Under the pieces are notes generated by a model. It worked only from the letters and a program-made list of their open reading frames with translations, had not been told where the DNA came from and searched no databases. From Coffea arabica (lineage: Eukaryota > Streptophyta > Magnoliopsida > Gentianales > Rubiaceae), in assembly GCF_036785885.1 (NCBI RefSeq), contig NC_092317.1, positions 7,566,501 through 7,630,500 of the forward strand: a stretch of DNA of 64,000 bases. The letters run 5' to 3'. The translations under genes were made by a program, and so were the position numbers. Positions 3,155 through 63,080 of the stretch are shown here, piece after piece. How positions within the stretch are numbered: the stretch's first letter is position 1; each line of letters begins with the position of its first letter.

Positions 3155-4059
3155 ACAAATTGGAAATCATTCGTTGGCCCAATCTGATGAAGCTGTCCAT
3201 CTTCTCAGTTTATGTGCTGTAATGACACGGCGGAAATCCCATTAAATTCCGGATGGATGGATGGGGTCTGTTCCGCGTGCTTGCACAATCGAAAGGTGCG
3301 AAGAGGTAGTATCTGGTTTTCCTTCCCCGGTGTTGAGTTGTATTTGATTTATCTCAACCGAGAATGTAAGATTGGACAGGCCATATGTAACTCTAGGTTT
3401 TGTTTTTCTTATTAATCTTGCTTGGTGGAAGGGAACTCTTCAATCTTGTTGTACATGATGTGTGATAATTTTTTAGGCTATCTAGTAAAAGCTTGTGCAA
3501 TACCTTGCTCTGGCTTTATCCAATTTTGGTTGGCTGGTCTTATTAGAATGAAAGCAGCCTCGGCAAAACTGTCTCCTGACTTTCACTCGGAGTATCTTTT
3601 GGTCGTTTTCAGGTAAATGAGTTATAACGGAATTTCAATGGCCCTATGCCCTCCCCCTCCGAACACTTTTATTTCGCAGGCACTTCCTCCGAATTACAGA
3701 GGACATTAGCTGTTTTAGGTGGCTTAAGTTTGGAGTGTGTCGGAATCATGGAAGGTAAAAATAAGCATGATTATCTGGATATCTATACAATATATAAAGG
3801 GAGAGCGCATCACACAGTGTCTTTTTTTGAAATTTCTAATATATCCTCAATTTCGGGGCCAAATTTGTCTCAATTTATTCCAATAAAATCCATTAAAAAA
3901 ACGTGTTAAAGAGATAATTGTGCAGACACGTTAGAGTATGCCTTGAACCCTAGCAGGTGCAATATGTGCAGCAAAGTTGACGCCAACTTTTGCAACAAAG
4001 ACGGTGCCGATGAAATACAGCACGAAGTAAACATGCCCCAGCAAACATCATGAGAGTAA

Positions 4060-4392
4060 GGGTTAATTCCACTTTGTCCTCCCAAACTTTGGACGATTAC
4101 CCACTTCAGTCCCTAAACTTCAAAATGGGACACTTAAGTCCTTAAAACTTATAAATTAGGACACTTAAATCCTTAAACTTATAAAATGGGACACTTCGAC
4201 CACTAATGGCATTTAGGAAATTTGTTGACAGAATCCTAAATGCCATTAGTGGTCGAAGTGTCCCATTTTATAAGTTTAAGGATTTAAGTGTCCTAATTTA
4301 TAAGTTTTAGGGACTTAAGTGTCCCATTTTGAAGTTTAGGGACTGAAGTGGGTAATCGTCCAAAGTTTGAGGGGACAAAGTGGAGTTAACCC
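4060..4392. mobile_element. Mutator-like foldback MITE with 9-bp target duplication
   Basis: This is a 333-bp near-perfect palindrome. The left arm (4060-about 4213) starts GGGTTAATTCCACTTTG. The right arm (about 4229-4392) ends CAAAGTGGAGTTAACCC, and the two pair along about 150 bp around a short loop near 4214-4228. The element is flanked by identical 9-base direct repeats TGAGAGTAA at 4051-4059 and 4393-4401. A 9-bp duplication with long terminal inverted repeats is the mark of Mutator-like elements. It has no coding capacity, so it must be mobilised in trans. A transcript through it would fold into a long hairpin suitable for siRNA production. Confidence 0.9.
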
Positions 4393-5623
4393 TGAGAGTA
4401 ATTGGTTTGAGCCACCCACCAGGCAACTGCAAGCTGGGTGGGGTATGAGGGACGCCCGAAAGACCAAGTGAGTGAACGTGGAAGTAGGAAGAAAGGAAAA
4501 AAGTTGAATTTGCAGTGGACCACAAAATTAATGGCTGAAAGGCTGGCCTTAGTGATTGGCAATGGACCACAAAATTGGGGGTGGTGGGGGCTTTTCCTTT
4601 TATTCTTCTGTTTGGTTGTTTTCTTGTTTCTCTTTTTTTTTTTTTTATTTCTTGCTTTTCTTTTTCTGTTCACTTTTTCATTGTAAAAAAATGGATGAAG
4701 CAGTAGTATTTTAGACCTTTTCTTCTTTGTATTTGATGGACTTGAAAGGTTTTGTTGCAGCTTGAAAATTACTAACCTCTTAACAGTCAAGTAGTTGGAC
4801 CAACCTCAAGGTGGATTAATAACCCTTAATAGTTTCTTGCCATACTCATAATAAGAGAAGAAATCACCTTTGTGACCTTTCAAGTAAATGAATAAATAAC
4901 AAGATCTATTCATACATAAAAAAATGCCCACAGTCCGGCAGCACCGGCACTGCCCCGCAACTGCCGTCCAAAGTCTAAACCAGTATAATAATAGCTTCAG
5001 GCACGGAAGGTTAGACGACCCCATCAAATCTTTTAAGTATTCAAGAAATCTCTTCGTCATGGAGGTGGCAAACTATGATAGGCCTTTTTCTCCATTTTTT
5101 CTCACCGCAAATTGGTCCTCAGCCACAAAATTGATTGCTGTTATCTTCTTCTCGGTTGTACTAATATCATTTCATTGGACTACAAGACTAGTAGTAGTTT
5201 ATTCTTGTTTACTTTTCAGTTACCTAATTTCTCTAGTCTTATGTGCAAATATCTACCTTCTCTGCTTGGAAGAATGTATATAAAAATCTTGGAGGTTTGT
5301 TGTGAGGAGATGATTAAGTTGGTCGTCTCTTCTCTTCCACGCAGTAATCATAGTGGTAATGATGAAAGAGATCGAGCACAAATGGCAATTAGATTTTTCT
5401 CCAGCCTAAACATTTATACATAATCTCCAGCCTAATGAATTACTGTAGTCAAGCATATAAAAAAGATAAACAAATGTAATCAGACGCAAATTTGGAACCT
5501 GAGATAGAATGCAGCCATGCATATGCCTTGTTTTACTTTTCGTCTGTAGCCATCACAGTAGCTATCATGTCGTCACACGCCAATGCGCGTTTGGACAGCG
5601 GACTTTCCTGCCCCATCCAGTAA

Positions 5624-8832: not shown

Positions 8833-11800
8833 ATGGAAAGGGCAGGCGCCGGAACCACCGTTCCCGAAACGACGTCGCTGTTCCCCGTTCGTCCTCAATC
8901 CTCCACCGGCGACGAGGATAACGCTCCGGAATGGCTTCGGAACACCAGCTTCACCACCGACCTCACCGTCATAAACGACGCCGTATCCACCCACTATCAG
9001 CAAGCTCAACTCGAAGAATTATCGTCGGAAGAAGACGAAGAAAGGGCAGAGAAAAGTAAAGAAAAATTGGCGCGTCCACAATATGAGTTGATAGACTCGT
9101 CCGCTTCGGATCGTGGCTCGTACAGTGATGACGAAGAAATGACAGAGAAGAGGAAAAATCGGAAGAGGAAGAAGAAGAAGAGGAGAAGAAGGGAATTATC
9201 TAGTAATGCAGCCTCATTGCATGAATACGGACTCGCATCCTCTTCTTCTTCTTCTCGAAAACCTGATATTCGAGCTTGGGCTTCTTCTACTTCAGATACT
9301 ACTGGTAGTACTAAAGAGTATTACTTTGATTCTAAGGGCGACCGCGATAATTTGGCCTTCGGTTGTATTTACAGGTATTTGCAGAAATAATTAGTTAAAT
9401 TCTACTCTGCTTAAATTCGTGACAAGATTTTGGACAATTTGGATACCTTTTAGTGTTTGGGAATTTAGAAAATCAAGATTGTTAAGCTGTTCCTATAGAT
9501 GAATCAAAAGTAAATTTTATTATGGGAATAGTGATACATTTTCTCTGGATTATCGGAGTAGAGACAGAAGATAGCAAATTTAAGGAGTTTGTAGAAACTG
9601 CTCTTTAGTTTTCAGTTTATTATGTAAACAAAGTTTAAGACTTTTCATGTTAATTGATTGAAACGGGTAATTGCTTGGCGTTTTTTTCAGTTATCGGCAT
9701 ATGCCATAGGCATTTGTATGAAAGAAGCAACTCTTGATTTGTTGACCTACATTAGTTCCTGTAGTTTGTAATTTATGTGCTTCTTTTGTCCATTTTACGT
9801 GATACAGTTAGCCATTCTCAGAAGTCAGTTACTTTTGGAACTGATGTAAGAGTTTGGTTTTTAAAATTTTGCAAGCTGTAAAATGATTGATTTCCAATTT
9901 TTCATCCTAAACTTGCTAGCTTTGGAGCCCTTTTTCTTTCACTGGAATCAGGAATCAATCAACTCCATCAACAACTTTCACCATGTAAATGTATCCAAAT
10001 TGGATAAAATGGGGATGGAGCCAATGACCAACTGCATATTATGGGTTACTTCTCATTGTAATACTATACGCTATATGCAGGATGGATGTGGCTCGCTACA
10101 AGCTCAAAAATTCAAGAAAATTTTCTGATCTTAGCTTCTATAGACGGAGCCAGAAGAGCTCAGTCTTGGATGGAGATGATGATATTGATGGACTGGATGG
10201 TAAACTTAGATTGGAGGGTCGTTATTGGTCAGCAATGTTTGCTGCACTAGAGCGGCATAAGAACTTGAAGCGAATTAGGGTTCTTGCTCCTCAAAAGATC
10301 GTTCCAACTGTAGCTGCTGAATTCATCCCTTTATCGGATGATGGGGGTCCCAATTTCAGATCTTCAGGGGATAAAGTAGTTGAGGAGTCATGGGAAGATG
10401 AGGTTTATCGTAAAACCAAGGAGTTTAACAAGTTGACAAGAGAAAAGCCGCATGATGAGAAAGTTTGGTTAGCTTTTGCTGATTTTCAAGACAAGGTGGC
10501 CAGGATGCAGCCACAGAAGGGTGCTCGTCTGCAGACTCTTGAAAAGAAGATTAGTATACTGGAGAAGGCAACAGAACTAAATCCAGATAACGAAGATTTA
10601 GTTCTTTCTCTTATGAAAGCTTATCAGAGTAGGGATAGCACTGATGTTCTGATTGGTAGATGGGAGAAGATACTTGTGCAGAATTCTGGGAGTCACAGGT
10701 TATGGAAGGAGTTTTTGCAGGTTTTTCAGGGTGAATTCTCTAGATTTAAGATATCTGAGATGAGGAAAATGTATGCCAATGCAGTCCAAGCTCTATCTGG
10801 TGCATGTAGCAAGCAGTATAGGCAGGTTCTCCCTCTCACGTAACTCCTGATACTGAATTTTAATTTCGACATTTGGTCAAACTTTCACGGGATTTATCCC
10901 ATACCTAAACACCTTTGGAATGTGAGATTAGCTATTAATATGTAGCAGAGGATAATTTGTTCAATTTTCTCTTCTTGGCCTTTCTCTAACTGACCTCATA
11001 GTTAAATTCCCCCCCCCCCCCTTCCTTCTGGTTTTTCATTCTGCTTTGAATAAATTGTGTGTAGTTGAACCCTTAATGAGTTGATTATGTTCACTGCAGG
11101 TTCAACGACATACTACTGGACCTTCTTCTGATCCAGAACTTGTTCGTCTAGAACTTGGTTTAGTTGATATATTTCTTAGCCTTTGCCATTTTGAATGGCA
11201 GGCTGGGTACCATGAGTTGGCTACTGCTTTATTTCAGGCAGAGATTGAATATACTTTGTTTTGTCCATCTTTACTTCTTAGTGAGCAAAGTAAGCGAAGA
11301 CTTTTCGAGCATTTTTGGAACAGTAATGGTGCTAGAGTTGGGGAAGATGGTGCTCTAGGCTGGTCAACATGGCTGGGAAAAGAGGAAGAACAGAGGCAGA
11401 AGATTGTTAACGAGGAGCTATCTCATAAAGCTGAAGAGGGTGGTTGGACAGGTTGGTCAGATCCGCCGTCTAAAACCAAGGATATGATGGAAGCTCTGGA
11501 AAATGATAGAGTTAGTGACATGGCTATTGAGGAATCTGGTGATGTCTCTGATGCAAGAGATGATGAGCAGGATGATGATACTGAAGCTTTGTTGAAAAAG
11601 CTTGGCATTGATGCTTCTGCTGATGCAAATAATGAGGTCAAAGACACTAAGACATGGACTAAGTGGTCAGAAGAAGAGTTGGCAAGGGACTCTGATCAGT
11701 GGATGCCTGTTCGCACAAGATCTGGTTGAACAATCTTTCTTTAATATGTGTGTGTGTGTTTGTTTGTTTTTCCTTTTAATGTGAATTTCTTGGTGTTTTA

Positions 11801-19728: not shown

Positions 19729-22700
19729 TGTGACGGTCCCACCTCCCCCTAAGGCGAACCAAAGGGTTCGGCGGACCGCCTGCCCAACTCTCGCCGGGAC
19801 TACGGATTCGGAACGAGCGTAAATCCTACCAACAGCTTAAAAGAATTTCGAGAAGATAACATTCACTGTCCGAAACCCAAACAAGCACAACAACTTTAGA
19901 TAACCCTAGAAAAGAACATTTTCAAACCAAATCAACTTAGAAACATGGTTAAACACTTTTATATACACATGGTTGCAAATTTACAATTTAAAAGGGAATT
20001 GTTTGGTTAAAATACATGTAAGATTTTCCAACCATCGAGGAGCTATACAAAAGAATACTAAAACTAGCTCAACTCATGTTTCAAACATCATACTCTTCAA
20101 AAGGTGATTTCCTGTAGGGAAAACAAGGATAACGAAACGGGGTGAGCTAGAAACTCAATGAGGTACCAAAAATATAACAGTAGAGATCATGAGAAAACAT
20201 TTATAGGACACATATCTGCATCAAGTAAAAGAAATGAACGAACATCACAACTTAAAGGATACAGGTGGCTCTCAGGAGCCAAATCCCCGTTGCAATACTT
20301 GATCCAACCTTGTTGACCCTCCGTCAACGTTCAAATAAAGGAACCAGTCCAGTAGATCACCACTTTAACGCCAAAATTCCGTTTACCGAGCCCGAACGCC
20401 AAACAGGAACAGGAATGGTAATGCTCGAGTATACCGGAATCAAGAGTCTCAATATCCAAAGATTCCCCCAAGAACAAACACCCATGGATTGTCAATTATC
20501 TCGACCAAACCCTTGCTGGCTCGATTTAATTAACTCCCCATGAGGTTGAGTTCAGGTTTAACAGGAAGGTCGTTGGATACTCTTCCAAACGACATCATAA
20601 CAAGTGCAAGTAACAAATTCAAGTACATAACAAGTACAAGTAATAGATTCCAGTTTGTTCAGTACAGGCAAGAGAACGAGTGTGATAAAGTACACCCTCG
20701 TCTCATACAAGATAAACAGTCAGGAAAGACATTCAACTAGCAATTTGCAAGTACAGGAAACCAGTTTAGCAATAATTCAGGGGAGTGGTACACTCACCTA
20801 TTAAGGCAAAATAATGTCCAGAATATCTTTTCGGGTAACATTCTCAATCACCGATGAACCCTAAGGTTAATCAAGAGAAAATATTACAGTTCCTCCAACA
20901 AGAGTCAGGTGAATTGAAGACAATTCAAATACCACTAGTACAAGGTATAAATATGATTTTGGAAATGAAAAGAGTACATTTAAACCGAAGGACATGAGTA
21001 AAATATTTGGAAACTTATGCTCGCTCGAAAAAAACTTTGAAATATCCATTTGAGTCGAAGAAAGGAAGAAAACGTATTTCTATTAGTCGTAAATGTCATT
21101 TTTCCAAGTGTACAAGTTTCCGCCAGATTCGAACTTATATACCTTGAGAAAAGAGGACGCAAATATCCTAGATGGTTCATATGGTACTCACTCTCAAATC
21201 GCTACCTAATTCTCGAGTGTAAATTTGGGCAGCACGCCCTTTGTATTTATCTATTTTCCAGCCATTTATGACTTCATTATTTTCCTCAATCAATCCCAAA
21301 GTCATACAAAAAATAAATTCATCATAACAGCAGTTCAATAGGCTCAAAGTCATTCAAGTACAAGATTTAACTAGGAAAATGATCGGAAATAAACTTCAAC
21401 CTATGAAACCAAAAGGCAGATTCACCGCTACTTAGCGTATCGGACCTAATTGAAACTATGCTTATTGGATTGAAGTGAAAGTTATACCGTTTCGAAGCTA
21501 AGACAGAGGGCTATAACTTTGATGAAGACTACTTAGTCCAGTTCGCACCCTAACTAGGTCAAATTTACCAAAACAACCCCAGATTTTCCAGTTCGAAGTT
21601 CACTGTGGCAGTCCTGATTCATTCAGTCATATCTTAGCACATACAACTCCAATTCAAGTGATTCCAAAGCAATTTGAAAGCTAAGATACAAGGCTATAAT
21701 TCTTAAGAAGACATCAACAACCAAATCAGTAGTATTCCCGGTCACAATTACCAATTACAGAGGCTGATTATCAGTTTCGGACAGAAACAGGGCAGCAGGG
21801 GTATTTCGATCTTTTCACAGGCTACGTTACTCCGATTGAGTTGAAATTTTGTAGGAAACTATAAAATATCATTCTCTACAACTTTCATGTTTTAACCCAA
21901 GGCTAATTCGACCTCTAACTAGGGGAAACAGTACCAGGCAGAATGGGTTCAATTGCAACCCTAATTTCCGAAATTTCCTTTCAAAGCGAAAATTTTCCGC
22001 AAATAGCCACAATTTAAGCCTTAAGGCTTCATTCTAAACCATTCCCAACCATCATCCATGGCCACACAATATTAATCATATGAAAACAGAAAAATCATGA
22101 ATAAATAGAAAAATTCACCAAACTCAACCAAAATCATGAAATAACCTACAAAATCATTTCTTAGACTACCACAAGCCACTAATTAAACATCATTAGATAG
22201 AAAAGAAAGGTTCCTTAGTTACTTATCTTAGCAACTCAAGAAAGGAGACCACTTAGCACCTTAGCCTTCCAAACTACTTCACTAATCACCTCACAAGCAC
22301 TAAACTAAGGGGTTTTATGGAGAGAATTCAAGATTAATCGGTTAGTGTGTTGGATTGAGCAAGATTGGAGCAAGAAATTGGAGAGCTTTTCTTTTATTTT
22401 CTTGAGCAAGAGGTTCGGCCAAATGAAGCTTCAAATGAAGATGATTTTAGGTAATTTTTGCTTAAATTGGTAAAGTGGTGAATAGTGGTCAAATGCAAGA
22501 CTTAATCTCCAAGTGACACTTGTCACTTCATTTAATACATGGTTATCCTTTTGTCTCACTCACACCAACTCATTTAATAGCCTCTAGTTATCTCTTAACA
22601 CCTGCTAAAATAAATCCGGTATCCAACACTTAACCTAACTCGCCGAATTTTACCGAACTTTCCGCACTAGCGGGTCCCACTTCCGGTATACGCATTTAAT

Positions 22701-22855
22701 TTCTCAAAAACTAACTAATACTAGGAAAATAATTTTAGAACTATATTTACTCATAAAAATTATCTAGAAAATTTTTCTAATAAAGAAAATAAAGAAAAGA
22801 CATGCAATTAAATAAAATAAAGTCTAGAAAATAAGAAAATTCACGGGTTCTCACA
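19729..22855. mobile_element. Solo LTR, 3.1 kb, copy 1
   Basis: The element starts TGTGACGGTCCCACC and ends CGGGTTCTCACA, so it has the TG...CA termini of an LTR. It is flanked by identical 5-base repeats AGTGT (19724-19728 and 22856-22860). It contains no gag or pol frame, and no second copy of its ends inside. It is alignable by eye over its length with the element at 24237-26976, for example at the left end (CCCCTAAGGCGAACCAAAG) and in the middle (CTACAACTTTCATGTTTT). I read it as a solo LTR left by recombination of a retrotransposon with very long LTRs. The parent family (possibly a Ty3-type chromovirus) and its orientation are not determined here. Confidence 0.82.
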
Positions 22856-23030: not shown

Positions 23031-23035
23031 ACAAG

Positions 23036-23586
23036 TGAAGAGGTGATTTTTTGTTGCTCGGGCTTTACCTCACTTGCTGGAGCTATCCTTAGATGAGAAA
23101 TGCAGCTCCCCAGAAGTCACCTGCTCAAGTTTTAAGAAATGCGGGGTTAGATCCCCTGATTCTCCTCCGACGCTCTAGTTAGTTCTTTTAGAAGTGAAGG
23201 TAAAGTTATTGAGTTAGATAAGGAGTCTTACCCCTTCTTTCTGAGGGGTCCTAGAGGTATTTATATGAGAGGGGGAGAGGATTGAGAGGATCCCTCCCCC
23301 TAGGGACTGTCACGCCCAAACTGTCAGCTTTACTTGACAGATTGGCTGTGGCAATAAGTCCCATCAATCATTCTGACCCCTGGCAGGTGTCAGACTGTAC
23401 CTGAACCCGGCCGTCCCATCACCTGACAGGAGCACATGGGTGGGAGACATGTCTTTGACCCCGGCTTTTGGTGGAAGTCATGTCGAGGTGATCCAACACT
23501 TTGGGAAGTTCGGTCCCTTCGGCGGTCTTAAGTCGTGGCAGAATCGAGGTGTGCATATTCACGACGAACCGAAATGACCCTTCTCA
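23036..23586 (-). repeat. 3' LTR of the Tat-like element
   Basis: The sequence TGAAGAGG...CCCTTCTCA is 551 bp and aligns with 34641-35190 along its whole length. On the minus strand it begins TGAGAAGGG and ends CCTCTTCA. The left edge abuts the TSD ACAAG. The right edge abuts a purine-rich tract on the minus strand. Confidence 0.95.
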
Positions 23587-23602
23587 ATAAACCCCCCAAG
23601 CC
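23587..23602 (-). other. Polypurine tract candidate
   Basis: Directly inside the 3' LTR the minus strand reads GGCTTGGGGGGTTTAT. This is the expected position and composition for the plus-strand DNA primer of reverse transcription. Confidence 0.6.
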
Positions 23603-23841
23603 TCGGGAAGGGCGAGATGGGCGGTATTTCCTGGGGCTTCCATACGGATACGGTAAGTCGCAACTGTGTCAGGATAGGTCCAGCGTGAGATATGAAATGG
23701 TGACGGGACGGGTGTCAGCTTTAAATGACAACACGAAAGGACGCGCAATGGAATACCAAGGGGCTGGCAGTCATAAATGAGAAGAGAGGCTGTCAGTCTG
23801 GGAGATCCCAATGCCCCATCTTTCCGTCTTCCTCTCTCTTG

Positions 23842-23850
23842 TATAAATAG
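23842..23850 (+). promoter_or_regulatory. TATA box for the antisense additional ORF
   Basis: TATAAATAG lies on the plus strand within the retrotransposon interior, after a pyrimidine-rich CTTCCTCTCTCTTG stretch. It is about 186 bases before the ATG at 24028, giving an expected start near 23875. It lies outside the LTR and points away from gag-pol transcription. Confidence 0.6.
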
Positions 23851-24027
23851 GAGGCCTGCATCCCCATTTACATTTTACCGCAAGCATTTTCAACACCCTA
23901 TAAAGCAGCATCAGAGTGAATATCCGCAGGGAATGTGAATCCTCCGGAGAGTTTCGACAGTCTTCCCCAACCCCTTTACTTCATAACCAGTAAGTTCGCT
24001 TCACCTTCCTCCATACTCTTTATCGTC

Positions 24028-27000
24028 ATGGCTCGGGTAGCCAGCACGCATAGGGAGACAGTGAGATCGGACTTCGCCGCAGCCGAGAGGCCCGATCAGG
24101 TCGAAAAAGAGGAAGACTTGTCTTCTAGCCCGGATGAGGCAGCCGTGGATGTTGGCGGGGGTGAACCCTCTCAAGATCCGAGCGAAAGGGGCTCCGAGGT
24201 GGTGTATGACGACACCCTCGGGGTCGAGGTGCCTAGTGTGACAGCCCCACCTTCCCCTAAGGCGAACCAAAGAGGTTAGCGGACTGCCTGCCCAGCTCTC
24301 GCCAGGACTAACGGTGCAGTATAGAGCGATCTTTCACGTTCCGGAACTTATAACGCGCGCAAATAAGGCAAAAGGGCAAAATAACCCAAAATAAAAGAAA
24401 CAAAATCCGGAGTCGGCCATGAATAGTAACCGACTCGTCCGAACCCAACCAAACATCGAATTACATAAACCACATAACATTTAGCTTTTACAAACCAAAA
24501 ATGACATTTAAAAGTGATACAAAAGTCGCTACATATATGGTTTGCCAAAACAAAAGTGAAAACGGCCCTAATGATACATTTAGGGTCCCATTTTATATAC
24601 AATACAAAAGAGTCATTCATCTAGTTCATTCGGCAACCATTTATCAAAATTCATTCCAAAAGAGTCATATTCCTGTAAGGAAAACAAAAGGAACGGGGTG
24701 AGCTAATTGCCCAGTGAGAATACAACTCAAGCAACCAAATTCATGGATACATCAAGTTTAACAGTCCAATTTACCAAAATAAATAAAGCCACACATTAAT
24801 AATGAGGATAAAAGGATACGGGTGGCTCTCAAGAGCCCTTTTCCTCGTTTGAATTCTTGATCGGTCTCATTGACTCTCCGTCAATGTTTGAAAAGTAACC
24901 AACTGTAGACCCACTTAACTTCCATTCCCTTCCTCCTAACATTCCTCAACCGGGCCCGAAATCCAAACGCATGCATTGTGGTATTACTCGAGTATACCGG
25001 AATCGAGAGTCTCTCATACTACACGATTCCATATAACCTTACCCAAGGCTCATTAATTGTCACGACCAAGCCCTTGCTGGCTCGATTCAATCAACTACCA
25101 ATGGGGTTGAGCTCATGGATAACATTTGAAGTCATGTATTTCATTTCATATAACATTTCATGTAAAATTCCAATAACTTTTCAATAACATGCGATACAAT
25201 AAGTGAGAATGATAAAGTACACTCTCACTTCAATTAATTAACATTCAACCTCTCAAGTTCAAATATCAAAGCCATATAATAGCACATAAGTGAGTAGTAC
25301 ACTCACCAAGCTAGCACAATGCGGTTTCAAACACTTTAGTCAAAAGAACGTTGTGCACCACCGTCACGCCCTAAAATCACGCAACAAATGCAATGAGACT
25401 CGATAACGAGTCATATAGCAATGCTAAACACAACCCCAATAGGGTTTCATATGCATAAATGAGCATAATAGCAAACCAGAAATTAGAAAATGGCCTTAGT
25501 CTTGGCCCCAAATAGAAAACTGTTTTGCCCTTATTATGCGGTAATGGTGTAAAATTCTCTACGGTTATCGGATGGGGGTGTAAGACCCACCGTTTTGAAG
25601 CTATGAAACAGGGCTACAACAATGTAGAAGGTCACTCAATCCAGTTCCTAGCTTAACTAGGTCGAAAATGCCAAATACTATACCAGAATTACCAAAACAG
25701 GTTTGCAAATCACACAAAACTGTAATTACTATAACTTAGTCTATACAAGTCCAAATTCCGAAATTCCAAAGGCATATGTTAACTAAGACATCCAGCTACA
25801 TTTCATCAGAAGACACCAACAACTAAATCCAAACCAATTCCAGTCAAAATGGCCAATAACCAGTACAGTTTTCGCATTCTGTCCAAAGCAGAACAGCTAC
25901 AGTAATTTCGTCATAACTCACTCTACACTAGTCCAATTGCCCTGAAATTTTGCAGGCACACTAAAATCATCAATACCTACAACTTTCATGTTTTGAGCAA
26001 AGTCCAATTCGGCCTCTAGCTATGACCTAAAATTTCGGGCAGATTAGGGGTTCATGAACCCTAACTTTTCACAATTCACTTCAAATCCAAAATTGATTGC
26101 ATTTCTCAACAATTCACACCCACTAGAGTCAAAGCCCCTTATTACAAACCATCATACTAGTCCACAACATCAAAATCATATGAAACCATAAAATTCATCA
26201 TAAAATGGAAAACTTCACCAAATCAAGCCAAACCAAGAAATAAATCATATATTCCAACACTCAAGCCACTTCTAAGCATACTATAACCATCATTAGGTGT
26301 AGTAGGGGGGTTCAAGCATCACTTACCAAATAACAAGAGAGAGAGGGATGATGGCCACCTTAGAGCTTCAAACAAACTTCACTAAAACACTTACTATCAC
26401 TAGAAGAAAGGTTTTTATGGAGTAGAATCTAATCTAGGCTTTTGTTTGTAGAAGATTGAAGCATATGGAAGCTTGGAAGTTGAAGAATTTCCTTTCTTCT
26501 TTGCTCAAAGAGAACCGGCCATCAAGGGTGCAAAATGGTGAATTTTGTGCAATTTTTGATATTTAATCCCTTGGTCAAAAAAGTCAAGAAAGTGAATAGT
26601 AATTCTTAAAGTCCAACCAATGAGATTGTGACACTTGTCACACTCATTAAATGCATTCCTATCTTTCTTTTCTCTCTCACATCAATCACTTCACACACAC
26701 TACTTATCTCTTAACACCCGATAAATTTTTCACAGTATCCGAAACTTAACTTTATTGGCTGAATTTTTTTTCCGAACTTTTCGCACTAGTGGGTCCCACG
26801 TCCAATATAGATTCTTAATTTTCTAAAATTTCACCAATGCTAGAAAAATCATTTTAAAACTATAACTGCTCATAAAATCCACTAAGAAAATATTTCTAAA
26901 CCAGAAAATGTAGAAAACATGCAATTAAGGGGAAATAAACCCTAGGAAAATAATTAGGGTTTTACGGGTTCTCACACCTAGGGACGAGGGGGTGTTAGAG

Positions 27001-28952
27001 CCGGCCACACCTCCCGACCTGTCAACGGTAGACTTCGGTCTACTTCCCCAGTACCACAACGTGGTCACTCTTCAAGAAGCTAACGAGGTGATCCGTCGAT
27101 ACTCCTTCCGTCCTCGCTATAGCATCTATCCGCCTTAGGAGCATCAAACAGCTGAGCAGCCCCCAAGGGGAAGAGTGGCTATCTACATTGACCAGCTGGA
27201 AGCCGGGCTGAGGATGCCCACGACGAGATTCTTTCGGGATAGCCTAAGATACTGGGGCGTCCGGATCACCCAGTTGTCTCCTAATGCAGTTCGGATCCTC
27301 ATTGAATTCGAACTACTTTGCCGAGAGCAGGAGATAACTCCCACAGTGACCCTCTTTCGACGCTGCTACACGATCAAGAACAGCGATAAGAAGGGTTGGT
27401 TTTATTTCGGCAACCGAAATAAGTATGTGCCGAAGTTAGTGGTGGATGCTTCCTCTTCAATAAAAGAGTGGAAGCATAACTTCATTTTCGTCCCCGCCGA
27501 GGACTTCCCCAGGGGGTTTTGGTGGAGGCCGCCTACCTCGGTTAAGGATTCCTCTCCTGGTCGTCACGAAGAGGAGAACTTCCGAAAGTTTCTTGGGTCG
27601 GACCTCAAGATCAACTGCTGGGACTACCTCGAAGTGATCCTTGTCGAAGGCGGGATCAGCCGAGTCTTGATCAGCCCGGATCATCCCCCTCATTTCTTTA
27701 CTAGACTTCAGAAATATTGTACTTCTAATTTCGTATCTTTTCATTTTCTTTTACTTCGATTCTAAGTAGTAATATCTTCATCTCCTGCAGTGGTGAGATT
27801 ATCAGACTTGATCACCACGAGCACTGTCGAAGTCGCGAAGAAGCCACAGAAGAGGAAAGCTCCGGGGGAGACTTCGGAGACCCAAAAGAAGAAAACGGCC
27901 ACCTCAACTCGGACTCCCCCCATCGTTGTCATCCTTGAAGAAACCTCCCAAGGTTCCACGATTCCGGAGGGAGTGGTCAACAGAGGTGTCACCATTGCAG
28001 CCCGCCCCCCTGCCGGCCGGGGCAAGCAAGCTCAAGTCCCTGCTGCCGAGGCGCCTGTCATGGGGTCGTCTCTTTGGAATCGGCACTTCATCCTGCCTCA
28101 AGAGGCCGGAGACGACAAGAGGCACCCCTACTGGCGTTGGTGTCTCGAGTGGGATGTCAGCGTCAACGACCGATGCCTGGACCCCAGGGTCGCCCAACAT
28201 CTGCTGGTACACTCCAGCCTGCCGAGGGATAATAACTACGCCAAAAAATTGACTCCCACCGAATTGATGCAGAACACCTCGGTATCATGGGCCTCGACCT
28301 CAGCATTCCTGTCCGAGTTGGTGCAACGCTATACCAACATGCACGAGAACCAAGTTCCCGTCGAGCTTCAGGATAAGGTCTTCCTCCTGGAGAAGAATCT
28401 GAAACTGGCCGAGGAGGAAAAGAAGCTGGCTGAGGAGGAAAAGACACAGCTTCGCAAAGAACGCCTGGTCGAAATGGAGCAGTCCGAGGCCAGCATCAAT
28501 TCCCTGAAGACTGCTTTGGAAGAGGAGAAGAATAGGCGACTTCAGGAGGAGCAGTCTTCCCGGGAGGCCATAGAGAAGGCGGGAAGCTCAGCAGTGGAAG
28601 CTTTCCGTTCATCCGAGGCCTTCACTCGTGAGCTCGGCCAGCTAACCCTGCCTAGCTATATGTTCGGGTACACTTCGGCTATCAATGAGGCGGCTCCCTT
28701 CCTTACCTCGGAACAACTGGACTCCTTCAAGAACAAAGCAAGCTATAACGAGAATGCCCGGGAGCTTTGCGAGCCCGCATGGCTGAGGGGATCCAAGTTG
28801 GAAGAGACCTGATCGAGGTTAGGGAGGAATTTAACAGCGAAATGGCGAATTTTGAGCCCGGACCTGAAGGCGGCGGGGAAGGAGATGACACAACTGCGGA
28901 GAGAACCGGGGCTGACGTGGGCCAAGGGGCTGCCGAGGGAAGGGACTCTTAG
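24028..28952 (+). pseudogene. Additional ORF of the Tat-like element, antisense to gag-pol, disrupted
   Basis: The frame starts at ATG 24028 (MARVASTHRETVRSDF) and runs to 24236, where a 2.7-kb solo LTR interrupts it. It resumes in the same frame right after the element. The conserved block from about 27175 (AIYIDQLEAGLRMP, FFRDSLRYWGVRITQL, GWFYFGNR) matches the plant 'putative gypsy type transposon' domain as I know it. A 72-base stretch 27719-27790 has GT...CTGCAG ends and removing it keeps frame. Beyond it are a basic Ala/Pro/Thr-rich part, a conserved LWNRHFILP region and a coiled coil (about 28370-28580). The lesions are TAG at 27136-27138, the LTR insertion, and a frame change near 28770-28800 after which the tail EVREEFNSEM continues to 28952. 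The undisrupted product would be about 700 residues of unknown function. Confidence 0.8.
24237..26976. mobile_element. Solo LTR, 2.7 kb, copy 2, nested in the Tat-like element
   Basis: It starts TGTGACAGCCCCACC and ends CGGGTTCTCACA, with identical 5-base repeats CCTAG at 24232-24236 and 26977-26981. It is homologous to the solo LTR at 19729-22855, although clearly diverged and about 390 bp shorter. It has no internal coding region. It sits inside the coding sequence of the antisense ORF, and the ORF frame is intact on both sides once one CCTAG copy is discounted, so the insertion is clean. Confidence 0.85.
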
Positions 28953-29185
28953 TAGAGTTCTAGGCCTCGGCGTTTTGTACTTTCAATTTTTTGTAACTGT
29001 TCTTCTTCAGTATTAATATCAATCTTCATTCCTTTTTCTCTATTACCTCTGTCTTCTAACACCTCGCTCTTTTATTCATTTACTACTCGTTTGTCCCCCT
29101 ATTTTCTTTAACATAAATCAGCGGTGTTAAGAAAATAACTAAGTACACGGAATGGGTGTAAGCATCTTCAAATAAGATGCAAGTG

Positions 29186-32100
29186 TCACGAAAAGTACAA
29201 CTTAAGTTTCTCGGCGTGCCAAATTCTAGGTACTAGGGCACCACCTCGATAGACCAACTTATAATACCCGTGTTGGCTAGCTTCAACTACGCGGTACGGC
29301 CCCTCCCAGTTCGGAGCTAGTTTGCCATGGGGTTCAGCTCGGCTAACTGAATTCTTTCGGAGGATGAGATCCCCTGGGATGAACCGGAGGTTTTTGACCC
29401 GGGAGTTGTAATAACTACCTAGGGTTTTCTTGTACGAGGCCATTTGGGCTGCTGCAGTATTTCTCTTCTCCTCGACGAGGTCGAGGTCAGTTCTTCGTTC
29501 ATCTTCATTGGCCTCGGCGGCAAAGGCTGCAATCCTAGGGCTCGAAGTAAGGAACTCCGCAGGGACCACCGCTTCGGATCCATAAGTCAACGAGAACGGG
29601 GTCTCTTGGGTAGCGGTCCTAGGTGTAGTCCGATAAGACCAGAGCATACTAGGGAGCTCGTCTAGTCAGGAGGATCCGAGCTGAGATAGCCTAGTCTTGA
29701 GGCCGTGTAAAAACGTTCGATTGAAGTTCTCGGCCTGAGGATGTCCAACCGAAGTGAAATATTGCTTAATCCCAAGCTCCTCACACCACGCTTTGAAGGG
29801 ATTGTCTGCAAATTGCTTCCCATTATCAGAGATGATCACCCGAGTTAACCCGAAACGACAGATTATGTGCTTCCAGAAGACTTTCTGGATGGCTTGGCCA
29901 GTAATGCTCCTTAAGGCTTTGGCTTCTACCCACTTCGTAAAATAGTTAAATGCCACCACGACATAGGCATAGCCACCTGTGGCCCTCTGGAAGGGGCCAA
30001 TGATATTTGTACCCCATTGCTCGAAAGGCCAAGGAGATGTGATGGGGACCATGAGGTTGGTCGGCCGGTAGTGTTGGGGCGCGTGGTGTTGGCAGGAGGG
30101 GCAACTCAGGACCAATATCTGGGCATCTTGTCGAATGGTTGGCCAAAAGTAGCTAAACAATAAGGCCTTTTTGACCAACATCTGGTGGCCTACGTGTGCC
30201 CGGCACATTCCTTCATGTATATCTCGGAGGATGTTCTCACCCTCCTCGGCAGTGATACAGCGTAGCCACGGGTCGAGATAAGAACGCTTGTACAAGTTGC
30301 CACCTTGAAGCGCGTATCTAGCTGCTTTGCGCTGAACTCTCCTCGCCTCGGCCTTGTCATTGAGAAGAATTCCTTGTTCTAAAAAGCTGATGAGGGGACT
30401 TATCCACGTATCCTCCGAGGTCACCGGATAAACCTTTTCCTCGAGGTACCCTGGCTCGAACAGAACCTCCAAGTGGATCGTCTTGTTGAGCGTGGAAAAC
30501 GCAGTGGAGGCAAGTTTTGACAAGGCATCAGCCCGCCTGTTTTTGGACCGGGGTATCCTTTCGATGTCAAACGACTCGAAGTAGGCGGCCAGTTGATGGA
30601 TTTTAGAAAGATAGCGCTGCATAGTTTCCTCCCTAGTTTCGTATTCTCCCAACACCTGACACACCACGAGTTGGGAGTCGTTGTAAATCGAGATGTGGTA
30701 AGCACCAAGCTTTCGGGCTAACTGCAAGCCCGCGATGAGCGCTTCATACTCAGTTTCGTTGTTCGACGCGGCAAAGTCGAACTGAAGCGCGTAGGAACAT
30801 GTCTCTCCATGAGGGTCTTCGAGGAGCAAATCAGCTTCACTACCATCACTATTGGAAGATCTATCCACATACAAGGTCCATCTTTTTAGCTTGGTGTCAA
30901 TCACAGCGGCGTCTTGGCTCACAGGAAAGGTGAGCTCGGCCAGGAAGTTCGCCAAAGCCTGGGCCTTGATAGCAGTCCGAGGCTCATAGGTTATGTCGTA
31001 CTCCCCTAGCTCAATGGCCCATTTGGTCAGCCGTCCGGACGCTTCGGGACGCGACAGGATCTGCCTAATTGGTTGATCAGTCCGCAGGCTTACAGGGTAG
31101 GCTAGGAAATAAGGTTTCAGCCTGCGGGTCGCGTGGACTAAACCCAACACGAGCTTTTCTGGTCGAGTGTATCGCGTCTCGGGACCTCATAGGACCCGGC
31201 TGACGTAATAAACGGGTACTTGAACACCATCATCCCGGATTAGCACGGCGCTGACGGCCTCATTCGCGACAGACAGGTATAGATACAACTTCTTCCCAGA
31301 CCGAGGTGACATGAGAGTAGTGAGATGGTGGAGATATTCTTTCAGCTCTTCAAAAGCCTGCTGGCATTTCGTGTTCCAAGAAAACTTATTCGCTTTCTTG
31401 AGTACCTTAAAGAAGGGCAAGACCTCAGCTGCAGACTGCGATAAGAACCAGTTCAGGGTAGCCAAGCGTCCGGTCAACCTTTGCACCTCGCGAATAACCT
31501 TCACCTTATCATGATTCGCTTCTATACTCGTCGAGAAACTAGGTACCCCAAGAATTTGCCAGAGATCACCCCGAACATGCACTTTTTAGGATTTAACATC
31601 ATCCGGGTGTCACGGAGGACCCCAAAGACCTCTCTCACGTCGGACAGCATTGCCGAGGTCTCTTTGCTCTTAAGGAGGATATCGTCAACATACGCTTCGA
31701 CATTCGGGCCTATCTGAGCTTTAAAGACTCGGTTGATCAGCCGCTGATAGGTAGTCCCAGCGTTCTTCAGCCCAAAGGATATAGTCGTGTAACAATAAAC
31801 CCCTTGATCTGTGAAGAAAGCTATTTTTTCTTGGTCCTCCTCACTCATCCCTATATGATGATAGCCTTTGAAGGCATCTAAGAAGCAGAGAATCTCAAAT
31901 CCCATCGCCAAATCGACTAGGGTGTCGATTCTTGGTAATGGGTAACAGTCTTTCGGGTAAACTTTATTCATATCGGTGAAGTCTACGCACATCCTCCACC
32001 CACCGGTGTCCTTTTTGACCATTACCGGATTGAAAAGTGAAGTGGGGTATTGGACCTCCTTGATCATCCGCGCTGGCATGAGCTTGTCCAACTCTTCCGT

Positions 32101-33234
32101 TACAGCTTTGCCGCGCTTCGGGCCGAAATGTCTCCTCTTCTGCCTAATCGGCTAGGCTCTCGAATCAACGTTCAGCTCGTGCAGCATTAGTTGGTGAGAT
32201 GCCCCGACCACTTGCTCAGCGGTCCAGGCAAAGACGTCCTGGTACTCCCTAAGAAATTCGATCAACCCGCCCTTGAACGGTTCAGGCAAATTTGTGCCGA
32301 CACGATCGGTTTGATCGGGATTGTTAGGGGCTAAGACAACGTTTTCGACCTCGTCTTCGGTCTCCACCCTTTGAGGCTTCACGGATTGGTAAGGATCAAT
32401 GCAGTCTATTGAGAGGATGTTAGACCTCCTGCCTTCGGCCTTCGGCTCGGGCGATGATGATGACGCGGCCTGCTAAGTAACAAGGTAACATTCCCGTGCC
32501 GCACAGATATCGCTGCTTATCTCGGCGATCCCCGCGGGAGTGGAAAACTTGAACTTTAGGTGGTACGTTGAGTACACAACTCGCAAAGCGTTCAAGGTGG
32601 GTCGACCCATCAGCAGGTTGTAGGGGGAATCAGCCCTAACCACCACGAAATTGACTGAGACAGTTCGACACCGAGTGTGGTGCCCGACTGTTACCATTAA
32701 CGTGACCATTCCCTCGGGGTGGACAACGTGTCCCCCAAATCCCACAAGAGATGTCCTGACCGGGATGAGCTGCTCCCTTGTCAGTTTCAGATTTTCGAAC
32801 GTCCGATAATACATGATGTCTACTAAACTTTCCGGGTCGATGTACACCTTTTTGACGATGTAATTGTTGGTGAGTATTTCGATCACCAAGGTTTCATGGC
32901 TGCTAGATACGGCCGGAACGGGGTCACTCAGGCCATAGGTGATCACCTCGGATAGCCGGGAGCTTGGCTCGGCCTGGTCTGGGTTAGCTTGTCGGTAGAT
33001 CCTCTTCCGAGAGTTTTGGCTGTCACCTCCCGTCGGACCACCAGCTATGGTGTTGATGACTCCAGCGATATTGGGCCCATATCCTGAACCCTGTCCGGTG
33101 GGGCCATAACCGGGGAACCCATCTCGGGGGGGGTCTCCTGGCATCCCTAGGGTCCTCCGGGGGTCGACAGCTGCTTCTACCACCTTGCTTTTCATCTCGG
33201 CGTTGGTCACCGCGATTTTCACGGCGGGAGTCAC
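29186..33234 (-). pseudogene. Decayed pol: protease, reverse transcriptase, RNase H, integrase
   Basis: Reading leftwards on the minus strand there is a protease region (about 33234-32473) whose active-site area reads VYIDPESLVDIMY, altered from the D-S/T-G type. The reverse transcriptase (about 32382-31187) has LDAFKGYHHI, FGLKNAG and catalytic YVDD at 31692-31681. RNase H follows (RWTLYVDRSSN, NNETEYEALIAGL, NDSQLVV, RSKNRRADALSKLAS). Integrase comes last, with an HHCC-type finger (CRAHVGHQM, CPSCQHHAP), a core with WGTNIIGPF where the first catalytic Asp is Asn, SDNGKQF, and a C-terminal part ending VPRIWHAEKLKLYFS. In-frame stops are at 32475-32473, 32154-32152, 31189-31187 and 29668-29666. 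One frame change lies near 31540. The product cannot be made intact. Confidence 0.9.
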
Positions 33235-34603
33235 TCCGATTGTAACTTCCGTCTCGCCGAACGAACTGTTTGAGGTAACCTTGCTTGATGAGACGTTCTA
33301 TCTTCTTTTTGAAATCATTGCAATCCTCCGTCTCGTGCCCGACATCTCGATGGTACAGGCAGTACAGATTAGAATTTCTTCTCTCTTTCTTCCTGCTCAT
33401 CTTCGGAGGGGCTCATCCAAGCCCATTCTGATCCATTACGGACAGTACACGAGATCGGCTGGTGTTCAAGGGGGTCAATTCGGCTTCCGAGACCGGCTGC
33501 TTCCCTTTGGCTATCCTTTCAGAGACGCTCCAACGATCCCGGCCGGGGCTTTGGATACCAACGTTGGGTCCGGTCTCGCCTCTACTTGACTCTCTCCTCC
33601 TGGGGTCAGGCTTCGAACGGGCTACCTGGTCTTCCTTCTTCATGTGGTTGAGGTTTTCGGCTTGTATGCCTTTTTCAACCTTTAACCAGAGGTCTTGGAG
33701 CGTGCGGGGATATTTCTTATGTATCGCAGTGTTAAACGTCCCGGACACAAGCCCGTTAATGAAGGCGGCTATCATCACCTGTTCATTAGGGTCAGGTATC
33801 TGCACGCTTTCGTCTTGAAATCTTTGCACATAAGACCGAAGCGACTCTCCCGGGTTCTGCTGTATGTTCGGCAGATACGTCGAGGTCTTGGTCGTAGGTC
33901 TGGAAGAGACAAAACTGTAGAGAAATCTCTCTACCAATTCCCCTAAGGTGGATATGCTCTTAGGTTCTAGACCCCAGAACCATTTTCGAGCAGTCCCCTG
34001 CAGGAATACTAGAAAAACCTGACAAATCACAGGGTCGGGGATGCAATATAATCGGAACGCCGAGATGAACGCGTGAAGATGATCTTTTGGATCACCTCGG
34101 CCGTCATAGGACGGTATCGTGGGGAGTTTGAAATTTGAAGGGAGCCTCTCCTCGTTGATCTCATCCGTGAAGGGCGGAACCCTCATATAATCCACTCCAG
34201 ACCTCCCCGGGAGTCGAGGTTCTTCGTCAGCTCGCCTTCCTAGTAAACCCCGTGAGAAGGCCTTGGATAAGGACGCAATTTTAGAAATAGCCTTAAACAT
34301 GGCTCGCTTCAAGGTGCTCCTAGCCAAACATCTTCCATCAGATGGATGCTCGGGAGATTCATCTGATTTTCTCTTAGAGGACTCGACTTTTTGTTTGCCT
34401 TGCCTCTTGAAGTACCTTCCTAATTCCTCAAAGACATTTGGATTTTTTGCCACAAACTCCGCCATCTTGGCCATGGCTTCTTCGTTTGCTGGCTGTCTCT
34501 CTGGAGACCCCTGTCCCTCGGCCATGTTCTCTTCTTGGGCCGCAGTGCTCGGCTGAGCCCCAATAGTGAGAACCTTCCTGCTCCTAGAACGCGTGGACTT
34601 CAT
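33023..34603 (-). pseudogene. Decayed gag of the Tat-like element
   Basis: The first ATG on the minus strand is at 34603 (MKSTRSRSRKVLT), 18 bases after the primer binding site; the frame is open from 34639. The retrotransposon gag domain is clear: FTDEINEERLPSNFKLP, SYDGRGDPKDHLHAF, ARKWFWGLEP and YVQRFQDE. A single in-frame TGA at 33415-33413 cuts it, and the same frame goes on with a zinc-knuckle-like CLYHRDVGHETEDC. A frame change around 33180-33234 separates this from the protease frame. Gag packages the element RNA. The basic C-terminal part and the finger fit nucleic-acid binding. Confidence 0.88.
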
Positions 34604-34620
34604 TCTTGGATATTTTCGAG

Positions 34621-34638
34621 TTCCCACAGACGGCGCCA
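34621..34638 (-). other. Primer binding site of the Tat-like element
   Basis: On the minus strand TGGCGCCGTCTGTGGGAA starts two bases after the end of the 5' LTR. Its TGG start pairs with a tRNA CCA end. TGGCGCC-type sites are frequent in plant Ty3 elements. I could not name the tRNA with certainty. Confidence 0.75.
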
Positions 34639-34640
34639 AT

Positions 34641-35190
34641 TGAAGAGGTGATTTTTGGTTGCTCGGGCTTTACCTCACCTGCTGGAGCTATTCTTAGGTG
34701 AGAAATGCAGCTCGCCAGAAGTCACCTGCTCAAGTTTTAAGAAATGCGGGCCTAGATCCCCTGATTCTCCTCCGATGCTCTAGTTAGTTCTTTTAGAGGT
34801 GAAGGTAAAGTTATTGAGTTAGAGAAGGAGCCTTATCCCTTCTTTCTGAGGGGTCCTAGAGGTATTTATATAGAGGGGGAGAGGATTGAGAGGATCCCTC
34901 CCCCTAGGGACTGTCACGCCTAAACTGTCAGCTTTACTTGACAGATTGGAGGCGGCAATAGGTCCCATCAATCGTTCTGACCTCTGGCAGGTGTCAGACT
35001 GTACCTGAACCCGGCCGTCCCATCACCTGACAGGAGCACATGGGTGGAAGACACGTCTTTGACCCCGGCCTTTGGCGGAAGTCATGCCGAGGTGATCCAA
35101 CACTTCGGGAAGTTCGGTCCCTTCAGCGGTCTTAAGCCGTGGCAGAATCGAGGTGTGCGTATTCACGACGAACCGAAATGACCCTTCTCA
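34641..35190 (-). repeat. 5' LTR of the Tat-like element, with TATA box
   Basis: This 550-bp LTR is the partner of 23036-23586. On the minus strand a TATA box CTATATAAATA lies at 34873-34863 and would start gag-pol RNA. Its right edge abuts the TSD ACAAG (35191-35195). The matching TATA in the 3' LTR carries a one-base insertion (ATATGAG instead of ATAGAG). Confidence 0.93.
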
Positions 35191-35719
35191 ACAAGTAAGG
35201 ACAATTCTTATCTTAGATCACTCAACACATCATAAAATTTGTAAATCAACAAGAAACAAGTGGAGAACCATGTAGTACTAAATAAAACTATAGATATACC
35301 GTTAAATAACATATTATCACAAGATTCACAACTACAACTCCTTGCAACGGCCAATATTCTTTCTTGCATTTTCCATGCAAAAAGATCATGTTAAACAATA
35401 ATGGGAAAGAAGCCAAAACCTGATAAATTGTTTAATATTCTAATATTTGGTTTAAGCTGAAGTGTAACAACTAAGCAACCAAAACCCGAGCTTCGTTGAA
35501 ATCAATTTACCTCAACCTATCTCGAGTGTTATAATTAGAATGAGTTCTCATTCATACACAATAGAATACATCTAAAAAGGGTTTGGCTGACACTCACTAA
35601 GAGCTTTTATTTTATTTTTTCATGAAATATAATTTGGGAAAATATCTGTAGAGAGTGCAATAAATGTACATAATAAATTAGGTATAGTTTAGATATACTA
35701 ACGAGAATAAGTATGGGAG

Positions 35720-38405: not shown

Positions 38406-40157
38406 TCAGTAATAAACCTTTTCAGAGTGGTTATAATTGCATCCCTCTGATCTAATTTCAGAGTACTGATCTCCTCCAGCTGAAAAGAAATCAATGAACG
38501 GCACACCAGTCTTTGTCTGATGATCATGCTCCAGTATTGATTCTTGTTCCACTTCCTCGTCTTCTTTTCTTGCAACATTGTCTATCACTTCACTTCTGTT
38601 AGAGTCAGCATTCACTTGAAGAAAATCATAAAACTCCACTGGTTCATTTTTATCTGCAATTGAATTTATAAAATCACCAAATAATGATCGAGTCTATTCA
38701 CGGAAAAAAAGTCCTATAATGGAAAAGGATTTACAACTTGAATACCTTTATCACGGCTCATATTCATATCATGAATATGTTTTTGAGACAATAGCTCCTT
38801 TAGATATGGAGAACAAGTGCTAAATGTTAGAGGGTACTGATGAAGCCTTTGAGAGTAATTATTCTCAAAGAGTATTGGACTGAAGCTACATTTGATCTGA
38901 TTACTACTTGCTTGCATGTCTTGCTTTGGCGACTCAGATTTCTGCTGATCAGTTCTTGATGCTTGAGCAGCTCTTTTTGCATACATTTTTGACCTCTCTC
39001 TGCATCTCCGAGCCATGATAACATGCCAATGATTCTTCACTGCATTATCAGTTCTACCAGGGAAAAGTCTAGCAATTATTGCCCATCGATTCCCATGTAT
39101 ACGATGAGATGCGAGGAGGAGTTCTTCTTCCTCTTCTGTGAAGGGGCTTCGATTGATTCTTGGATCTAACTGATTAAACCATCTCAACCTACAACTCTTC
39201 CCTGATCAAGAAATACACCTCGTAAGTTTTTTTTTTTTTTTTTTCAAATAAATTCTAACTTTTATTAGAACCAAAAGAGGTTACATGACAGAAAGACCTC
39301 GTAAGTTGATGATTGGTTTAATGTAATATTGAATAAGTGACGTATTTATCATTTAGAAAATAGATCCACTACACAAATTATAGTTGATGTTACATTACAC
39401 CCTTGTAAACATGACATGCATAATATTTTATTTTATTTTTTTAGGTCTTAGAAAATAATTCCACTACACAAATAACATGTATCCTTAGAAATAAATACAC
39501 TTAGCAAATTAATAGTTGGTTTTAGACACTTGCAAACCATGACAAGCACAATTGAACAACTTTCTTTTTTTTTTTTCTTGGGTTTTGCTAATTCAATATA
39601 GCAAATAGAGATATCTTGAGGCCGAATATATTGCATGGGGTTGAGATGAACATTCACCAGATCAAAGGTGAAATGTAACATTCAATGTATAGTACTCCTA
39701 CAATTAGTAGATGAATTTACAATCCAATAATACATTACGTGCTTAAAGATTGATTCTTTGTCAAGAACTTTTTCCTCTCTCTCTTTTGTTCTTTTCCACT
39801 TAGCCCAACATATTACTGTTACACTTTCTTCATGAATGTCAAAACCCTAATCACTGTTCATGAGATGAAGCCTACCAGCAGTGTTCAACTCTACTTTTTC
39901 ATTTCCTTCTTTACTTTTTTTTCGTTAACTGCCCTAAATTTTGCATCCATTTTTGGGAGGTTGGGGGATGTCAGGGGTGTAAGATGGTACAAGTGAATTA
40001 ATAGAAGAAAAATAATTTGACTTGCTACAAAATGATTCTCACCTGATCTTCCTTGTAGCTTTTCAGCTATGGCGTTCCAATTATGAGGTCCATATTTTTC
40101 CACCAACTCTCGTAGCTTCTCATCCTCAGCAGGCCTCCAATGGCCCCTGCTACACAT
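38406..40157 (-). CDS. R2R3-MYB transcription factor, subgroup-21-like
   Basis: Three exons on the minus strand, 40157-40043, 39201-38746 and 38653-38406, join in frame to 272 residues. The R2 repeat (about residues 4-53) has Trp7, Trp27 and Trp46; the R3 repeat (about 57-104) has Phe59, Trp78 and Trp97. [40 protein letters not shown] and [20 protein letters not shown] are the signature of the group that includes Arabidopsis MYB52/54/56/69/105/110/117. The intron positions inside R2 and after R3 fit R2R3 genes. Members control secondary walls, organ boundaries and meristem activity; which role applies cannot be read here. The C-terminus is acidic ([14 protein letters not shown]), which could activate transcription. 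The start is uncertain: relatives often carry extra residues before CSRGHW, and a splice acceptor-like CCAG precedes this ATG. Confidence 0.9.
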
Positions 40158-62947: not shown

Positions 62948-63080
62948 AAATTTTAGATAAATGTCATATATCATAAACGAATTGCATATAACTTTTGTAA
63001 TGTAAATGGAAACATAGGGAGTCCTGCTCACACTATGGCTCCATTTGTTTCTATTAATTGTAGGACGCAAACGAATTGAA

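Follow-up and report, generated by a model that had tools for sequence, protein, structure and literature searches.

Does the strand opposite gag-pol in a long terminal repeat (LTR) retrotransposon of coffee carry a gene of its own, separately promoted and spliced? The question arises in a 64,000-nt stretch of Coffea arabica DNA (C8:7566501-7630500, here called the window), where a Ty3/gypsy element on the minus strand faces, on the plus strand, a reading frame convergent with gag-pol. An original prediction, drawn from these letters alone, described that frame as some 700 codons with lesions, preceded by TATAAATAG outside the LTR and interrupted by a removable 72-nt segment, and proposed that the copy descends from one expressing a separate spliced antisense mRNA. 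Upon comparing the locus with related copies of the same genome, we consider it very probable that an independent accessory gene is encoded on the plus strand, with two exons separated by a GT-AG intron some 70 nt long, a TATA promoter of its own and a spliced product that is a putative nuclear protein.

The antisense frame in the window copy

The TATA box TATAAATAG (23842-23850) lies 256 bp inward of the boundary of the 3' LTR (23036-23586) and thus outside it, where the original prediction had placed it. Judged only from the spacing to this box, the antisense transcription start site would be at about 23873. The sequence TATAAATA stands on the minus strand of both LTRs (23258-23265 and 34863-34870), in the sense direction; together with TATAAATAG on the plus strand it makes two predicted TATA promoters facing each other, which bears out the convergent layout that had been proposed. 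The GT...CTGCAG segment occupies exactly 27719-27790, the frame is identical on both sides of it and, again as predicted, its removal preserves the frame.

The expected size of about 700 codons agrees with that of relatives with open frames (mostly about 315 codons in exon 1 and as many as 399 in exon 2), but the window does not hold one decayed frame: a solo LTR of 2740 bp inside exon 1 had been overlooked (Table 1). Once this LTR and one copy of its target site duplication (TSD) are subtracted, exon 1 measures 946 nt, a length also found in 9 of 58 relatives when counted from the first in-frame ATG. The match of exon 1 to Transposase_28 (PF04195; E = 1.4e-13) means that the frame is not a chance open reading frame (ORF). 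Near 28.77 kb there is a frame change: exon 2 of the relatives follows one frame of the window as far as about 28773, and a different one from 28776 onwards. The final antisense stop, at 28952, falls 233 bp short of the convergent pol stop. The window copy is a dead member of its family.

Predicted intron, promoter and leader among related copies

Relatives were sought in the same genome (1,197,963,845 bases in 131 contigs). The DNA search gave 50 matches, from the best 40 scored of 448 candidates; in the protein search with a piece of exon 1, the best 150 of 1244 candidates were scored. Fifty-nine stretches were analyzed in full: 39 came from the DNA list (all scored places except the window) and the remaining 20 (L048-L067) from the protein list. 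A further 20 short stretches, with 62-68% identity, represent more distant relatives in the latter list. As the sequence of L033 departs from the family ahead of the intron, it was excluded from the intron and upstream alignments, which hold 59 sequences (58 relatives and the window). The first 39 stretches were picked with a query that contained the intron, while the other 40 were selected by exon-1 protein alone, which avoids this bias. Sequences with at least 180 stop-free codons upstream and at least 150 downstream of the intron were considered open; there are 24 among the 59, the window included. No relatives were found in plasmids, viral contigs or contigs of prokaryotic genomes, most of these searches being seeded by short exact patterns, so that distant relatives would escape them.

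The donor of the intron is GT in 53 of the 59 aligned sequences (AT in the remaining six) and the acceptor is AG in 58, both being present in 52. Intron lengths range between 67 and 75 nt, and 31 of them are not divisible by three, against 28 that are. GT-AG ends are found in all 24 open sequences versus 28 of the 35 that are not open (Fisher p = 0.035). Twelve of the open sequences have an intron of frame-shifting length, and in all 24 an unspliced transcript would run into a stop or out of frame, so exon 2 is unreachable without splicing. The pattern is likewise complete (20/20) in L048-L067, chosen by exon-1 protein similarity alone. Among the distant stretches, 18 of 20 fit a GT-AG pattern of 68-71 nt and L075 fits by eye; the pattern match in L084 was discarded as spurious, its sequence being interrupted at that place. 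Between the same pairs of open copies, divergence in the interior of the intron (p 0.26) is lower than synonymous divergence in exon 1 (0.60). The T-rich composition of the intron accounts for this only partly, because its saturation value is 0.66, and constraint on the intron may extend further than its ends. As to the distant copies, retaining an intron of 69 nt would add about 23 mostly hydrophobic residues; U-rich introns tend to encode hydrophobic residues anyway.

In the interval from -260 to -100 relative to the expected start, TATAAATAG is present in 43 of the 58 copies, or in 47 if a final A is allowed, versus 0.06 expected under a first-order model. In a gapped alignment of the 59 upstream regions it is the most conserved 9-column block of 833, with a mean of 0.94 versus a median of 0.32. 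The box is exact in 46 of the 59 aligned sequences, and the ATG is retained in 53. The leader holds the conserved motif AGTAAGT. Of the 53 sequences with an aligned ATG, 49 have it at a distance of 21-45 nt before that codon, where 0.85 would be expected for the hexamer GTAAGT; the motif contains this perfect donor hexamer, preceded by A in every case. No fitting acceptor was found between AGTAAGT and the antisense ATG, and an intron running from the motif to just ahead of the ATG was rejected, the space being at most 45 nt. Taken across the copies of this genome, the conserved TATA box, intron ends and frame support the proposed descent from a copy with a separate spliced antisense gene.

Selection and competing explanations

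Selection was assessed on the 23 open copies other than the window, by the ratio of non-synonymous to synonymous divergence (dN/dS) in pairs with dS of 0.03-1.5. The median ratio is 0.117 in exon 1 (202 of 253 pairs) and 0.169 in exon 2 (166 of 253 pairs), and the purifying selection for which the original prediction had suggested a check was thus found. Over whole exons no pair exceeds 1, either in exon 1 or in exon 2, and pairs with dS below 0.6 give 0.148 (exon 1, 29 pairs) and 0.179 (exon 2, 27 pairs). When slices of 60 codons are taken, seven pairs exceed 1, in four of the 14 slices, and four of these seven belong to the slice with which exon 1 begins. At the C-terminus of pol the ratio is 0.084 when computed from 17 of these 23 copies (135 of 136 pairs), and 0.093 in a set of 32 copies (363 of 496 pairs), pol being hence somewhat more constrained than the antisense exons. 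The ratios show both exons to be under purifying selection in the copies compared, a pattern which argues that the protein has been retained, and not the RNA alone.

When four relatives were scanned for protein families, PF04195 was the sole family at E up to 0.1 in exon 1 of all four, and exon 2 gave no family above the cut-off; one of the four has a sub-threshold match to the KIF21A model in the coiled-coil-like region of exon 2. The first 60 residues of exon 2 contain KRK in 23 of 23 open copies, and 17 of the 23 have the stricter string K[KR]x[KR]. The basic cluster reads as a candidate bipartite nuclear localization signal (NLS).

In the two-exon gene so delineated, the conserved TATA box would direct RNA polymerase II to initiate near 23873, on the opposite strand from the genomic RNA. 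Exon 1 would provide the N-terminal region and the Transposase_28 domain, and splicing would join this part to the frame of exon 2, with the NLS-like basic cluster, conserved segments and the coiled-coil-like stretch. The spliced product may be an oligomerizing nuclear protein which aids the element by binding its DNA or chromatin, for regulation or integration. Since splicing links Transposase_28 to the basic cluster, we propose that it may decide the location of the protein. The intron would survive in a retroelement because it is antisense to the genomic RNA: the template carries only its complement, which is not spliced out. A wider proposal, possible but in our opinion rather unlikely, sees here a splice-controlled antisense gene, in which splicing joins Transposase_28 to the nuclear signal and the coiled-coil tail, the leader AGTAAGT ties antisense transcription to the splicing machinery, and the product is possibly an anti-silencing or integration factor common to the Retand elements of flowering plants.

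Several points weigh against the two-exon gene as we describe it. Eight of the 20 distant copies (L068-L074 and L087; nine with L075 by eye) have a stop-free, in-frame intron of 69 nt, which means that splicing is not required in every copy; in these copies it looks optional, and the retained form could be read too. The donor is mostly GTAC or GTAT after a T, weaker than the usual plant donor consensus. A branch-point-like CTAAC or CTGAC occurs in only 30 of the 59 introns, and the branch point is therefore not used as evidence. The counts are not independent events, the copies sharing ancestry within one genome and a few being near-identical (L018/L019; L043/L045/L047). As dS is near saturation for most pairs, the dN/dS ratios are rough, though still far from 1. 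AlphaFold, run on a 193-aa piece of the window alone, gave a predicted local distance difference test score (pLDDT) of 39.5, and in profile searches of the PDB exon 2 had no match at E up to 0.01, while exon 1 had a single weak one, to a ribosomal protein (E = 0.12), which was taken as chance. Promoter use and splicing are predicted from comparative sequence, and the nuclear, oligomerizing and DNA-binding roles are inferred from sequence.

Might the antisense transcript act as RNA, pairing with the genomic RNA and silencing or tuning the element, with the protein incidental? The antisense unit lies inside the region that genomic RNA should cover, a role of this type is discussed in parts of the review by Vicient and Casacuberta 2020 (PMC7264820), and passages on Drosophila HeT-A report conserved splicing in antisense transcripts of the 3' untranslated region (3'UTR) (PMC3235214). 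We nevertheless consider this explanation improbable, because it predicts neither purifying selection on both exons, near the level of the pol C-terminus, nor a conserved ATG and a splice-joined frame. An RNA role and a protein role could coexist.

It is very improbable that the 72-nt segment represents diverged coding sequence, or a lesion in the frame of the window copy, with exon 2 expressed separately. The distant copies in which the segment is 69 nt long and open (8 of 20) would suit this explanation, but in 31 of the 59 sequences the length of the segment is not divisible by three, read-through is blocked in all 24 open ones, and the GT and AG ends are retained while interior and length vary. 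We find it scarcely credible that the frame is a passive hitch-hiking relic whose promoter-like and intron-like strings are due to chance or shared ancestry. Although all copies are related, 35 of the 59 fall short of the open criterion and the window copy, which satisfies it, has other lesions, both the median dN/dS values of 0.12 and 0.17 and the first rank of the TATA block among 833 (mean 0.94 versus median 0.32) speak against a relic.

The element, its lineage and known antisense genes

Table 1. Coordinates of the element, its antisense gene and the inserted solo LTR, in positions of the window
Feature	Position	Strand	Evidence
Ty3/gypsy LTR retrotransposon	23036-35190	minus	TSD ACAAG at both ends
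3' LTR, 551 bp, TG...CA	23036-23586	minus	left TSD ACAAG 23031-23035
TATAAATA in 3' LTR, gag-pol (sense) direction	23258-23265	minus	sequence
TATAAATAG, predicted antisense core promoter	23842-23850	plus	conserved block
AGTAAGT in antisense leader, 5'-splice-site-like, conserved	23989-23995	plus	alignment
Exon 1, first part; ATG 24028-24030	24028-24236	plus	sequence and alignment
Inserted solo LTR, 2740 bp; TSD CCTAG (24232-24236, 26977-26981)	24237-26976		sequence and genome copies
Exon 1, second part; in-frame TAG 27136-27138 in window copy	26982-27718	plus	ORF and alignment
Transposase_28 (PF04195) match, E = 1.4e-13	27184-27378	plus	Pfam
Intron, 72 nt, GT-AG (GT...CTGCAG); in-frame TAA 27763-27765	27719-27790	plus	sequence and alignment
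Exon 2; frame entered from intron stops at 28810-28812, other frame ends at 28952	27791-28952	plus	ORF and alignment
Basic clusters, bipartite NLS-like	27838-27894	plus	by sequence
Glu/Lys-rich stretch, coiled-coil-like	28360-28590	plus	by eye
pol pieces: reverse transcriptase (RT), RNase H, second RNase H (RVT_3), integrase; stop-interrupted	29186-32151	minus	ORF translation and Pfam
gag	33413-34669	minus	ORF translation and Pfam
Likely primer-binding site, starting 2 nt past 5' LTR	34621-34638	minus	sequence seen; identification inferred
5' LTR, 550 bp	34641-35190	minus	right TSD ACAAG 35191-35195

The LTR pair of the element is 94.5% identical over 559 columns (BLAST). Between the bounded LTRs, 550 sites show 22 transitions and 6 transversions (Kimura two-parameter distance, K2P, 0.053); at plant substitution rates of 1.3e-8 and 6.5e-9 (per site and year) the age of the element would be about 2 and about 4 million years, respectively. 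The pol pieces contain an RT domain (RVT_1), and the order of domains is RT_RNaseH, RVT_3 and integrase. No chromodomain match was obtained in the scanned pol pieces (31187-31521 lying outside the scan), nor any family match in 32473-33297 in the Pfam scan. A second RNase H (RVT_3) after the RT-RNase H, without a chromodomain, is a mark of the Tat clade. Within it, the antisense PF04195 ORF between pol and 3' LTR is a feature of Retand. The ranges given for Retand in PMC11963269 are 315-1194 bp for the LTR, 7380-12869 bp for the internal region and 2933-6566 bp from pol to 3' LTR. Here the LTR (551 bp) and the internal region (11,054 bp, or 8,309 bp minus the solo LTR and one TSD) are within these ranges; the pol-3'LTR region measures 5,599 bp with the insert and 2,854 bp without the insert and one TSD, the latter being slightly below the range and hinging on where the end of pol is drawn. 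By its sequence, the element is a Retand-like Ty3/gypsy.

The insert in exon 1 is classed as a solo LTR because it has no partner LTR here; its full 2740 bp are also found end to end elsewhere in the genome. Some of these copies occur in pairs or rows about 4.75-4.8 kb apart, as at G000:C15:23357810-23374814, with about 2 kb between LTRs, which suggests tandem LTR arrays of a short element that is probably non-autonomous. To the left of the Ty3/gypsy element, and ending in TTCTCACA some 180 bp short of it, is an LTR-like stretch (20254-22855) that is 66-70% identical to parts of the solo LTR; neither its start nor its TSD could be located. Elsewhere in the window there is an inverted repeat at 4059-4393 (160-nt arms, 98% complementary, 15-nt spacer), perhaps a foldback insertion or one like a miniature inverted-repeat transposable element (MITE), and there are two-copy tandem duplications at 1563-1860 (149 bp) and 63078-63289 (106 bp). 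Host genes recognized by Pfam encode an NRDE-2 family protein (10028-10843), a MYB factor (38717-39205) and a pyridoxal-dependent decarboxylase (54733-56366).

Passages of a survey of Retand elements describe antisense TRP28 ORFs with PF04195, located between pol and 3' LTR in 97% of the clusters of recent copies surveyed, whose function is not known and for which DNA binding is predicted (Vicient 2025, PMC11963269). The coffee element resembles them in this ORF, in its position and in the long internal region. That survey used ORF Finder and lists TRP28 and Smc-like antisense ORFs, whereas here the TRP28 and coiled-coil-like parts would be two exons of one gene. According to passages of PMC7264820, gene23 of maize Grande reportedly has its own promoter upstream and encodes a nuclear protein (Gomez-Orte 2013, cited therein). 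Both are antisense accessory genes between pol and 3' LTR, with an upstream promoter that is reported there and predicted here from the conserved TATA box; the protein is nuclear there, while here only an NLS-like cluster is found; host and family differ. A nuclear function of the coffee protein would agree with the nuclear localization of Grande GENE23 (PMC7264820) and with the DNA binding predicted for TRP28 (PMC11963269).

Outside plants, Drosophila HeT-A shares conserved splicing confined to the antisense transcripts of a retroelement, but it is a non-LTR element in which splicing affects 3'UTR antisense RNA, with no protein product named in the passages concerned (PMC3235214). HBZ of human T-cell leukemia virus (HTLV) is likewise an antisense gene with a promoter at the 3' end and a nuclear accessory protein; the HTLV promoter lies inside the 3' LTR, the one predicted here lies outside, and the likeness is one of description (passages of PMC11963269 and PMC7264820). 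By term search, the words intron and TATA are absent from the main text of PMC11963269, intron from the text of PMC7264820 and antisense from that of PMC7730604, in the form in which these were available; a passage of PMC7264820 calls for a search for antisense and spliced transcripts. No report of an intron in this antisense gene appears among the literature matches listed (titles and abstract starts), and it may already be in print, for instance in Gomez-Orte 2013 or in a survey of extra ORFs which we take to date from 2011.

A spliced, separately promoted gene under selection near that of pol, as comparative sequence points to, would alter the gene model of such elements. Retand elements abound in certain plant genomes, and with a two-exon structure ORF-by-ORF scans would split the protein in two. 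The predicted junction 27718/27791 is a precise one to seek in existing RNA data. The locus would also provide a clear case of an intron retained by a retroelement, most simply explained by its location on the non-template strand.

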